DNA from: a virus
Length of the DNA: 37,300 nucleotides
Direction: 5' to 3' (one strand)
Virus record (IMG/VR): IMGVR_UViG_3300042863_000552
Location: 1-37,300 of that record
Made by a program: the position numbers and the translations under genes. The notes below the pieces were generated by a model. That model saw only the letters and a program-made list of their open reading frames with translations. It was not told the DNA's origin and searched no databases. This document shows, one piece after another, positions 2,621 to 37,300 of this stretch (positions are counted from its first letter, which is position 1; each line of letters opens with the position of its first letter).

Positions 2621-2632
2621 ATTAAAAGAAAA

Positions 2633-2732
2633 GCCTTACTTCTAATCATACAACTGGAACTTGTATTTTCAAAATAAGGCGTTGATGTTTTTTGTTAGGT
2701 AGTTCCAGTACCTTTTTGATTTGTCAAAGATA
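2633..2732 (-). promoter_or_regulatory. Structured 5' leader of the helicase-methyltransferase operon
   Basis: On the minus strand a TATCTTTG box (2725-2732) matches the Bacteroidota -7 consensus TAnnTTTG, although no good -33 box sits at the right distance. The roughly 97-base leader that follows contains two interleaved complementary pairs. AGTTCCAGT (2701-2709) pairs with ACTGGAACT (2653-2661), and TAAGGC (2675-2680) pairs with GCCTTA (2633-2638). The order A-B-A'-B' is that of a pseudoknot. On the transcript the second pair is followed by a U-rich run, so it could also act as a terminator. Function is inferred from pairing only. Confidence 0.45.
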
Positions 2733-33112: not shown

Positions 33113-33277
33113 TTAATTTAAGTTTATAATAAATAAATGTTTTACTTTGTTGTAATGGTATTCGTATTTTTCGTAATCTGAATAACTAATAATTCCATCA
33201 ATAAACTTTTGAGTTATTTTATCGTGCCTATTTTGTAATAGGTTTGTAGTTGGATTAAAAAGGAACTTCATCTTCAT
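33113..33277 (-). CDS. Small hypothetical protein (54 aa)
   Basis: Reads MKMKFLFNPTTNLLQNRHDK, then ITQKFIDGIISYSDYEKYEY and ends FIINLN. I chose the ATG at 33277; it overlaps the helicase end by 23 bases and a later ATG at 33271 is equally possible. Not recognised; the 5-base spacing to the HTH gene supports it. Confidence 0.5.
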   Translation of the reverse strand: MKMKFLFNPTTNLLQNRHDKITQKFIDGIISYSDYEKYEYHYNKVKHLFIINLN

Positions 33278-35060
33278 CGTTATAAGGTAAATCGTCAAAC
33301 ACTCCTTTTAACTCTTCCATTTTAATTAATGGAAAAGGACTTAACTCTTGTGCAAATTCTTTTTGCTTATTCTCTTCTAATTGATTTTTAAATCTAATCC
33401 AATTATAAATATCTTCGTTTTCGTTTTCTAAATATCGACCGCTTTCTAAATGATATTTAAACTCACACATTCCAACTTCGCCCCAATGCGAAAACTTTAC
33501 TTTTTGAATATAAACTTCTGTTTTTTCAGTTTGATAATTTCTGTAAATTGTTAATCCATTATCTGTTTTGTTGTAGAAGTTTGCTGAACCGCTTATGTTA
33601 TAAAGATTTGGTATTTCATACATTTGCGTTTCTTTATTCTTTAAAATCTTTGTAGGGTGCGCAACTAAAAAACAATGCACATTGTTCTCTTCGCAAAACG
33701 TAGCCAACTTATCCAAACTTTCGCCAATGTATTTAGTTTCGCTTTGTCCGTACTTATGCTCTAATTTATTCCACGCATCAATAACAAACGCATCAACTCC
33801 ATTAGTAGCTTTTAATTGTTTAACGTGTTTTAAAATAGATTCTAAAGTAAAATCCTTTTCGGGTTTAATAAACCAAAACTTTTTATTTAGATAATCTTTA
33901 ACATTATTTAGTTCGTCTAAAGTTATACGATTTTCGCCAAACCATTTTTTACCAACCAATTTACGTGCAAGTTTCGAAATATGTAAACGTGTTGGTTTAT
34001 TTTCTGGACTATAAAAAGCAAACTTCCAATCGTTTTTAATATTAAGTTTTAATGCAATTTGGTCTAAAAAGTCTGACTTTCCATGTCCAGGCACTCCCGT
34101 AATAGTTGTAATATATCCTTTTGCAAATCTTAACTTTGTATCAAAATCTCTCATTCCAGTTTCTACACCATTATCTAAACCATTTTGATACATATCGTTT
34201 ATTTCTAAATCAATATCCTCAATAGTAAAAACACCCTCTAAAGGAAAACTTTTAGCATTATTAAAAGCATTTATTATTTCGCTTTGCCCTTTAAACTTAT
34301 ACAAATCGTTTGCATCTTTGTATTCTTCAAATTCAATATATTTGCATTTTTCAATACCTAAACGTTCTGCAAGGTCTATTCTTAATTTACGCCCAGCAAT
34401 ATCATTGTCAGTTGCTAAATAAAACTTTTCAATATGTTCTAAATATTCAATGCAATTATCTAAATAAATTAAGTTATTAGTATTTATGTTTGCGCCATTT
34501 GGAACTGAAACAACATTTTTAAAACCGCATTGATAAAAAGTTAAAGCGTCTATTTCGCCCTCACAAATAATCAATTCTTTAAAATCCTTAACCGCATCTA
34601 AATTGTAAAATATCAATTCACTTCCTTTATGTAGTTTAAAAGATTTTTTTGCTCCTCTATACTTTACATTTACAAGTTCGTTATTTCGAAAATAATTAAA
34701 TTGTATTGTTTCAACTTCCTTTTCAAGTTGTGGCATAAATTCCAATCCGCAAGTAACTTTTAAATCTGTTAAAGTATTTTGATTTATTTTTCTTTCACTT
34801 TCGAAATATTTTACTACTACGTCAGATAGTTGTGTTTTATTTTTCCATTGTGGCAAAATATAATCTACCTTTTCAATTCTATTTAATAACCCACCTTTCC
34901 AACCGCAATGATGGCAAAACCAATTTGACTTATCTAAATTAACAGACAAGCATTTATCTGTTTTCTTTTTTCTTGTATGGCTACATTGCGGACAAATAGT
35001 TTGCACCTCTCCCGATGTTTTACTACTTCTTATATCTATGTTAAAATCTCTGAAGTCCAT
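33255..35060 (-). CDS. Primase-helicase (T7 gp4-type)
   Basis: 601 residues. An N-terminal zinc ribbon (CPQC at 23-26, CHHC at 49-52) precedes a TOPRIM domain. Its motifs are ELIICEGEIDALT near 165 and FYLATDNDIAGRKL near 214. A RecA-like helicase domain follows, with Walker A TGVPGHGKSD near 318, Walker B DAFVIDAW near 415 and HCFLVAHPTK near 452. The protein primes and unwinds at the phage fork. The ATG shares a base with the stop of the DUF4373 gene (TAATG), a typical replication operon. Confidence 0.92.
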   Translation of the reverse strand: MDFRDFNIDIRSSKTSGEVQTICPQCSHTRKKKTDKCLSVNLDKSNWFCHHCGWKGGLLNRIEKVDYILPQWKNKTQLSDVVVKYFESERKINQNTLTDLKVTCGLEFMPQLEKEVETIQFNYFRNNELVNVKYRGAKKSFKLHKGSELIFYNLDAVKDFKELIICEGEIDALTFYQCGFKNVVSVPNGANINTNNLIYLDNCIEYLEHIEKFYLATDNDIAGRKLRIDLAERLGIEKCKYIEFEEYKDANDLYKFKGQSEIINAFNNAKSFPLEGVFTIEDIDLEINDMYQNGLDNGVETGMRDFDTKLRFAKGYITTITGVPGHGKSDFLDQIALKLNIKNDWKFAFYSPENKPTRLHISKLARKLVGKKWFGENRITLDELNNVKDYLNKKFWFIKPEKDFTLESILKHVKQLKATNGVDAFVIDAWNKLEHKYGQSETKYIGESLDKLATFCEENNVHCFLVAHPTKILKNKETQMYEIPNLYNISGSANFYNKTDNGLTIYRNYQTEKTEVYIQKVKFSHWGEVGMCEFKYHLESGRYLENENEDIYNWIRFKNQLEENKQKEFAQELSPFPLIKMEELKGVFDDLPYNDEDEVPF

Positions 35061-35758
35061 TAGTACACCATTTTAGGTTTATTGTCTTTTACTACGTCTT
35101 TTTCAATATAAATCAAAGTTTGAAGTAATGCTGACTTCCAATTTTTTATAGGTCTGTCGTTTCCATTTTTCCAATCATTAACTACCCACGCATCGTATTT
35201 ATTTTGCAACGCTTTTAAATTAACACTTGGCTCTTTTTCTTTTGCATATTCTGAAAATTCTAAAAATGTTGGAATATCTTTAGTTTTATCTTCTTTAGTA
35301 TCCTTTACTATACTTTGTGTATTATCGGTAGTAGTAAGTTTACTTTTAATAGGTTTACGCGCCCCTAAACTAACTAATAGTTGTAATAAACCATCATAAG
35401 TAATACATTTATTTTTTCTCTTAATGTAAGCATCTTGAATACTATCTATAAAATCTTGACACCATATTATATAATTTTCTTCCCAAAGTAGTTTATCAAA
35501 CTTACCTAAATCAACTAAATCTTTAATAATAGATAAAAGTATTTCTTTACTAATTTTACATTTAGCACTTAAAAACATTTGTGTAGTAGGTTTTGATAAA
35601 TCTAAATAATGATAGTTTGTTTTTGCTAGTTCACGCAATAACTTTACAAATGTTGCAAATCCATCATTTCCGTATGTTTCCTCAATGTAAAACATTTTGT
35701 TTCCATCTTCACATATAAATGGAAAATAATCTACGTTGTTTCTTTCTGGTCTTGCCAT
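35060..35758 (-). CDS. Replication initiator-like protein (DUF4373)
   Basis: 232 residues beginning MARPERNNVDYFPFICEDGN, then KMFYIEETYGNDGFATFVKL, which match the Lin1244/Lin1753-like N-terminal domain (DUF4373). The winged helix (KISKEILLSIIKDLVDLGKF) and the C-terminal DnaD-like end (YDAWVVNDWKNGNDRPIKNW) suggest helicase loading or origin binding. It is the first gene behind a promoter and an attenuator-like leader, and leads into the primase-helicase. Confidence 0.85.
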   Translation of the reverse strand: MARPERNNVDYFPFICEDGNKMFYIEETYGNDGFATFVKLLRELAKTNYHYLDLSKPTTQMFLSAKCKISKEILLSIIKDLVDLGKFDKLLWEENYIIWCQDFIDSIQDAYIKRKNKCITYDGLLQLLVSLGARKPIKSKLTTTDNTQSIVKDTKEDKTKDIPTFLEFSEYAKEKEPSVNLKALQNKYDAWVVNDWKNGNDRPIKNWKSALLQTLIYIEKDVVKDNKPKMVY

Positions 35759-35784
35759 AATTTTTAATTTTTTAATAAAACAAA

Positions 35785-35883
35785 AAGCCCTTAAATAAAG
35801 GGCTAGACTTTCTTTACTTAAGGGTGTTTGCTTTCTGTTTTTACTTCAAAATGGAACACCTACTTTTCAATAGGTGTCTAGCC
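35785..35883 (-). promoter_or_regulatory. Attenuator-like leader of the replication operon
   Basis: Downstream of the promoter the RNA reads GGCTAGAC (complement of 35876-35883), a hairpin ACACCTA/TAGGTGT (35856-35877) and GTCTAGCC (complement of 35801-35808). It ends with a terminator stem AGCCCTT/AAGGGCT (35785-35804) followed by TTTTTGTTTT. GGCTAGAC is exactly complementary to GTCTAGCC, which overlaps the first half of the terminator stem. Pairing of the former would break the terminator, so two mutually exclusive states are possible. Confidence 0.65.
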
Positions 35884-35894
35884 ATATTGAGTTA

Positions 35895-35926
35895 CAAAGT
35901 TAATCAATTATTCCAATATACCAAAA
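35895..35926 (-). promoter_or_regulatory. Bacteroidota-type promoter of the replication operon
   Basis: TTTTG (35922-35926), a 19-base spacer and TAACTTTG (35895-35902) on the minus strand fit the consensus. A start near 35888 places the attenuator-like leader at the very 5' end of the transcript. Confidence 0.78.
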
Positions 35927-37078: not shown

Positions 37079-37114
37079 CTTTAATTCAAATTCATTTGTT
37101 TAACAATTACTCTC

Positions 37115-37232
37115 GTGTCGAATTTCTCAAAGCATTGTTTAGGTGTTAAACCGCTCCAATACATTTCAAATCTGTGTCGAATTTCTCAAAGCATTGTTTA
37201 GGTGTTAAACCGCTCCAATACATTTCAAATCT
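37115..37232. repeat. 59-bp tandem duplication at the circle junction
   Basis: Bases 37115-37173 and 37174-37232 are identical 59-bp units; the second begins the terminal repeat. Because 59 is not a multiple of 3, the duplication shifts the small gene crossing the junction. It is either an assembly fault or a real variant. Confidence 0.85.
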
Positions 37233-37300
37233 GTAAATTTGTCGGTTGCCTTTCCAAAAGGTGTAACCGCTTATCTGTTGGTTAAAATCGAAGTATTCCA
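37146..37300 (-). CDS. Duplicated junction gene, window-end copy lacking its first base
   Basis: This is the same small gene as at 1-128 and begins one base before the window end (the A of ATG is absent). It reads through the duplicated unit and stops at TAA 37146-37148 after about 52 codons (final residues DLKCIGAV). Confidence 0.45.
   Translation of the reverse strand, partial: EYFDFNQQISGYTFWKGNRQIYRFEMYWSGLTPKQCFEKFDTDLKCIGAV
37174..37300. repeat. Terminal direct repeat, right copy
   Basis: Identical to positions 1-127 (see there). Confidence 0.9.

Follow-up and report, generated by a model that had tools for sequence, protein, structure and literature searches.

The replication operon of a 37.3-kb phage record (hereafter the window, i.e., the whole stretch of 37,300 nucleotides analyzed here) is preceded by an RNA leader in which the loops of two successive hairpins, P1 and P2, are complementary to each other over eight bases (segments A and A'). 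The same layout, consisting of a promoter, P1, an A/T linker of about 15 nt, P2, usually a U-tract and then the start codon, was found with unrelated loop sequences before genes for DUF4373 initiators, an unrelated initiator, SNF2-type helicases and homing endonucleases. Leaders of this kind occur in many viruses of Flavobacterium-like bacteria and very likely serve as switches that restrain expression of the replication genes. A preliminary description of the window had proposed that the leader controls the operon of the DUF4373 initiator and the primase-helicase; it does lie ahead of both genes, but the specific tie to DUF4373 was not retained since other gene families carry it as well.

Organization of the leader

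The window contains portal, terminase and endolysin genes, no match to a tyrosine integrase was found in it, and all of the genes scanned are on the minus strand. The leader is located between a preceding SSB-like gene and the DUF4373 initiator gene, in the order promoter, P1 (A in its loop) and terminator hairpin P2 (A' in its loop). The features discussed below are the following:

35922..35925, minus strand: promoter -33 element TTTG, as read from the sequence
35895..35902, minus strand: promoter -7 element TAACTTTG (TTTG-N19-TAACTTTG, Bacteroidetes -33/-7 type)
35867..35890, minus strand: hairpin P1, TCAATA-[TGGCTAGACACC]-TATTGA, with segment A in its loop
35876..35883, minus strand: segment A, GGCTAGAC, in the P1 loop
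35856..35877, minus strand: alternative hairpin ACACCTA/TAGGTGT, mutually exclusive with P1
35788..35824, minus strand: 13-bp terminator hairpin P2, CCCTTAAGTAAAG-[AAAGTCTAGCC]-CTTTATTTAAGGG
35801..35808, minus strand: segment A', GTCTAGCC, exact complement of A, located in the P2 loop
35804-35786, minus strand: short terminator AGCCCTT/AAGGGCT, real as sequence
35777..35787, minus strand: terminator U-tract CTTTTTGTTTT, as sequence
35749..35758, minus strand: possible second copy of A (A2) in the start codon region, ATGGCAAGAC, with one mismatch to A; uncertain
35060..35758, minus strand: DUF4373 / Lin1244_N replication initiator, first gene behind the leader
33255..35060, minus strand: primase-helicase, second gene behind the leader
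2621..2732, minus strand: second leader, ahead of the SNF2-type helicase gene (1250-2620)

The promoter and the terminator are sequence predictions. A promoter had been placed at 35895-35926, and its TTTG, 19-nt spacer and TAACTTTG were borne out, with TAnnTTTG lying at most 30 nt from P1 in 39 of 52 leaders against a background of 4%. Taken by itself the match is weak because the Bacteroidetes-type pattern occurs five times in the window where 2.1 occurrences are expected; a sigma-70 promoter scan was uninformative at this promoter. The RNA would be expected to start a few nucleotides past the -7 element, at approximately 35888-35892.

The single-strand leader folds with an energy of -42.5 kcal/mol, compared with -20.0 kcal/mol for shuffled sequences (z = -7.5; 0 of 200 shuffles reached it). 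The preliminary description was right in placing a structured, terminator-bearing leader ahead of the replication genes. The layout predicted for an intrinsic terminator was observed, namely a promoter-proximal G+C-rich hairpin followed by a U-tract before the first gene, and the U-tract is missing in some other leaders (e.g., L159, L166, and L292). P2 nearly always relies on G-U pairs of the sense RNA strand, in part by construction. One or more U-G pairs are found in most P2 outer stems, frequently just behind a CC in the 5' strand (CCU/GGG), and these pairs possibly tune terminator strength. A DNA-level element (operator or origin hairpins) was rejected on account of the promoter placement, the U-tracts and the G-U pairs.

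The exact complementarity reported between GGCTAGAC (35883-35876) and GTCTAGCC (35808-35801) was found as stated, and P1 (TCAATA/TATTGA) exposes GGCTAGAC in its loop. The ACACCTA/TAGGTGT hairpin, said to lie between the two segments, exists but not in such a clean position, since it overlaps GGCTAGAC by 2 nt and is incompatible with P1. Likewise, the short terminator AGCCCTT/AAGGGCT is present, but the folded and conserved form is the longer 13-bp hairpin (35824-35788) with the loop AAAGUCUAGCC, and thus with GTCTAGCC in the loop. The overlap of GTCTAGCC with the stem of the short terminator is peculiar to the window, A' being in the apical loop in nearly all relatives.

A 14-codon ORF, MARHLLKSRCSILK (window 35841-35885, minus strand), begins within P1, and its first codons resemble the start of the initiator. 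A leader peptide does not look like a general feature; several other leaders have no ATG ahead of P2 (judged by eye, uncounted).

The second leader of the window has the same architecture and another loop pair (ACTGGAACT/AGTTCCAGT). Its parts are the promoter TATCTTTG, P1 AGGT-[ACTGGAACT]-ACCT, P2 GCCTTATTTT..AGTTCCAGT..GAAGTAAGGC and a U-tract. Near the contig end (window 37079-37300), a tandem repeat was seen with a unit of about 60 bases (ACAGATTTGAAATGTATTGGAGCGG...AATTCGACAC).

Spread of the element among viruses

Relatives of the initiator in viral contigs have leaders of unrelated sequence and identical plan. Their P2 comprises an outer stem, usually a short inner stem, and an apical loop with A', while the A/T-rich P1-P2 linker is typically 12-20 nt long with a recurrent ATTAT-like core and no other strongly conserved positions were seen. 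When the initiator is the second gene of its operon, the element is located ahead of the first one. The element is also present in the isolated Flavobacterium phages hattifnatt9-1, snusmum6-1, 11b, and elemoC.

Leaders were counted with a scripted detector (hairpin, hairpin, and loop-loop complementarity of at least 7), using dinucleotide shuffles of the same regions as control. With thresholds picked after examples had been seen, a score of at least 17 was reached by 15 of 96 regions upstream of DUF4373 genes (0.8 expected), 24 of 46 upstream of the unrelated initiator family, that of L035 (0.5 expected), and 13 of 68 upstream of SNF2-type helicases (0.6 expected). Loop-loop complementarity was about 20-fold above dinucleotide shuffles; for the near-identical loci L119 and L216, the loop-loop score was matched by 0 of 40 shuffles. 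In other viral contigs, retrieved with a 14-base pattern, there were five hits at 840 promoter-like anchors, including the true L035 leader.

A near-copy of the window leader (L035:134-276) precedes the unrelated replication initiator, which suggests that the leader moves as a cassette. In the sister contig L005, the second leader precedes a GIY-YIG endonuclease-like gene, named from a sequence motif without a profile search, rather than an SNF2-type helicase gene. An orphan copy (L344:656-790, plus strand) immediately follows a tyrosine integrase gene and has no nearby ORF on its downstream side. This diverged copy resembles the window leader most in its plan, down to a CACCTT/AAGGTG pair as the counterpart of the alternative hairpin. 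A host RNA origin for this orphan was rejected, with short partial matches only, in 2 of 150 Flavobacterium genomes. The HNH homing-endonuclease leaders of two phage isolates (L496:9823 and L497:9823) have the loop GTCGTCG in common, which is also found at L170 and L125:516 and may travel together with the endonuclease gene.

Comparing the leader region with isolated phages by blastn returned short initiator matches only. At the gathering threshold, Rfam gave zero matches in the window and 20 leader loci, including to any known riboswitch or ribosomal-protein leader family, and a permissive scan of the window leader gave chance-level matches only.

Covariation of the two loops

Cognate loops of 32 selected leaders pair over 7-9 bp and non-cognate loops over a mean of 3.4 bp, perfect pairing in this set being partly by construction since the detector selects complementarity. 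Independent evidence comes from substitutions in scaffolds that can be aligned outside the loops. Among six hand-picked near relatives (L006, L011, L171, L259, hattifnatt9-1, and snusmum6-1), every cell of the loop-loop helix was paired (100%) and five of its eight pairs showed double changes; the P1 stem was likewise 100% paired. When the partners were slid by 1-3 columns, 35-45% of cells were paired compared with 94.5%. The very similar leaders of hattifnatt9-1 and snusmum6-1 differ in their loop pairs, which are GTGAGACG/CGTCTCAC and GTGGAACG/CGTTCCAC, respectively. The mean loop-loop duplex energy was -10.7 kcal/mol. An alignment of whole leaders with MAFFT left P1 unaligned and two registers in P2. 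Covariation of the two 8-base segments in relatives, which the preliminary description had named as its test, was detected. At the level of sequence, these substitutions show that the A/A' complementarity is under selection while the loop sequence changes.

A repeat of A close to the start codon

The second copy of A (A2, at least 6 nt) was identified in 13 of 52 detected leaders (about 25%), compared with 1.7% of non-cognate comparisons, and begins 5-10 nt ahead of the ATG in 12 of these 13 cases; about 75% of leaders have no clear A2. The most telling case is a pair of leaders that are about 91% identical (L374 and L382), where A (GTTGCAG to GTCGCAG), A' (CTGCAAC to CTGCGAC) and A2 (GTTGCAG to GTCGCAG) changed jointly and the inner stem P2b changed on both sides. 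In the window, the A2 candidate differs by one base (ATGGCaAGAC vs. ATGGCtAGAC) and is suggestive at most, because of this mismatch and because the match is partly trivial, half of it being MA, the usual protein start. That roughly one leader in four offers A' another pairing site by the start codon points to a role in translation besides termination.

Number of leaders per genome and their orthogonality

In phage genomes read whole or nearly so, the number of clear leaders was one or two; it was three in the two mumin isolates that were read in part. In hattifnatt9-1 and snusmum6-1, the leaders are found at the helicase, the HNH endonuclease and the replication operon. Loops within one genome do not cross-pair, the cognate ones forming 7-9 bp and the others 2-4 bp. 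Segment A of the window is present nowhere else in it, and no convincing additional trans target of A beyond A2 was found at gene starts in most genomes read. Where A is short, as in L292 and L276, scattered copies were seen at a level resembling chance.

Proposed mechanism and alternatives

Our preferred reading, to which we give an even chance, is that the leader forms an RNA circuit complete in itself, where the P1 loop competes for the terminator loop A', joined in some phages by the translation start as a further competitor. It would probably serve the autogenous control of early or replication operons, with a logic resembling that of the P4 CI RNA. A' would be the active element: when held by the P1 loop in a kissing complex, the downstream gene would be expressed, whereas free A' would let P2 fold as a terminator and/or would cover the translation start at A2, lowering expression. 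This direction of control (P1-bound A' being the ON state) is a guess. The terminated leader RNA of about 100 nt would pair with the P1 loop on newly made transcripts or else with A2 itself; alternatively, the trans agent would be a P2 fragment cut free in the A/T-rich linker, the role of this linker as a cleavage site being speculation. Expression would then drop as the leader RNA, and hence the phage genome number, rises. Every cassette would respond solely to its own sequence, and this proposed specificity would account for the divergence of loops and the absence of cross-pairing within a genome. We infer that self-limiting feedback in trans best explains loop diversification and orthogonality, both of which could also be obtained by drift under a cis constraint. 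A more far-reaching version, which we put forward only tentatively, holds that lytic Bacteroidetes phages use these orthogonal, self-targeting leaders to sense their own genome number through feedback in trans on their own P1 loop and start codon; coinfecting phages with the same loop would interfere with each other, and loops would diversify like plasmid incompatibility groups. Several points argue against the circuit as preferred here. A contact between A and A' outside the P2a stem need not disturb the terminator. With P1 and A' on one molecule, a leader that has terminated would mostly pair with itself, unless cleavage intervenes or its action precedes folding. Most leaders, moreover, have no clear A2, and the candidate in the window carries a mismatch.

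A serious, though less likely, alternative is an attenuator acting in cis only, with P1 and P2 in contact within one nascent RNA and kissing slowing or stabilizing the folding of P2. This would give a fixed read-through or a rate-dependent switch, and the loops would drift freely as intramolecular complementarity alone counts. The constant P1-linker-P2 order and the short linker suit an intramolecular contact, the terminator ends near the AUG in many leaders, and most leaders lack A2; however, cis action alone leaves unexplained the A2 copies that change with A and why leaders of one genome never share loops. The antiterminator model of the preliminary description, in which GGCTAGAC excludes the terminator stem in response to a signal, draws on the overlap of GTCTAGCC with the base of the short terminator in the window. 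The terminator-bearing leader was borne out. The exclusion was not supported as stated: in nearly all relatives A' is in an apical loop outside the stem, and in the window it is the 13-bp hairpin that folds rather than the short terminator. With A' in the apical loop, A:A' pairing (as a kissing complex or pseudoknot) could coexist with the terminator, and we regard this model as very unlikely.

The kissing complex might also act as a sensor, bound by a Rop-like protein of phage or host origin or by a ligand that reads its shape rather than its loop sequence. Such a role would fit an architecture kept without loop sequence and the ATTAT-like core of the A/T-rich linker; the absence of other strongly conserved positions, the lack of an Rfam riboswitch match and the unexplained A2 make it improbable. 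Even harder to sustain is an immunity RNA of the P4 CI or P1 c4 kind, by which the leader RNA of a prophage would silence the replication operon and exclude related phages. The order A-A'-A2 before replication genes matches seqA-seqB-seqC of P4 (PMC4825925), and loop diversity resembles immunity groups. Nevertheless, an integrase was found in only four of the leader-bearing records tested and none in the window, leaders are also located ahead of homing endonucleases, and the mumin phages (hattifnatt, snusmum, and tooticki), carriers of several leaders here, have been described as lytic only (PMC7077304). Few integrases and lytic carriers thus disfavor lysogenic immunity as a general role.

Significance and comparison with known systems

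The leader would represent an unrecognized class of RNA regulators in phages, serving genes for replication, helicases and homing endonucleases, and this in a phylum (Bacteroidetes) for which phage gene control is little known. Its presence in isolated phages with cultured hosts makes it immediately testable. As natural parts that are orthogonal and follow a simple code, the loops would be useful as RNA switches in Bacteroidetes and, if they act in trans, RNA-based interference between coinfecting lytic phages becomes directly testable. In the open-access literature searched, no phage kissing-loop RNA at a Bacteroidetes replication operon was found, which is not proof of novelty, and no paper on DUF4373 and phage.

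In phage P4, the CI RNA causes premature termination, its seqB being complementary to seqA upstream and seqC downstream (PMC4825925). Both systems have a leader of the replication operon (alpha operon in P4) and a tie, predicted here, to transcription termination (PMC4825925), and a segment with two complementary targets would be paralleled where A2 is present. In the leaders studied here, A and A' are present in all those detected (by selection) and a clear A2 in about 25%, with the joint change of all three in L374/L382 and one mismatch in the A2 candidate of the window. Unlike in P4, the pairing partners each occupy a hairpin loop (kissing), the terminator loop itself provides the antisense sequence, the downstream copy is at the start codon, most carriers have no integrase, and several orthogonal cassettes occur per genome. 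No Rfam match supported P4-type homology for the window and 20 leader loci, and Rfam may lack a CI RNA model. Given the lack of an Rfam match, the other structure, the many integrase-free carriers and the lytic mumin phages, we did not file the leader as a P4 CI member.

The c4 RNA of phages P1 and P7 (c4-a1b1) has an antisense segment with targets upstream and downstream, the latter at a translation start, on one transcript. Leaders with A2 would share this arrangement of one antisense segment and two targets, but c4 controls an antirepressor gene, in phages of Proteobacteria, and has another structure. The c4 antisense RNA family (RF01695) is listed in PMC2864571, and its covariance model found no match in the window, 20 leader loci or a permissive scan of the window.

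A 5' hairpin loop that pairs with a segment beside the start of a replication gene is also common to the leader and the repZ pseudoknot. In the IncI-alpha/IncB plasmids (ColIb-P9, pMU720), the specificity of this loop sets incompatibility. The repZ system differs in requiring translation of a leader peptide as well as an antisense RNA from a transcript of its own; neither was seen here as a conserved feature. Plasmids pIP501 and pT181 have a terminator in the rep leader, and RNAI-RNAII of ColE1 form a 7-nt loop-loop kissing complex with sequence-specific incompatibility. The leader resembles these systems in its predicted terminator ahead of a rep gene or in its loop-loop kissing; their antisense RNAs are transcribed from the opposite strand, whereas here both complementary loops are carried by one transcript.
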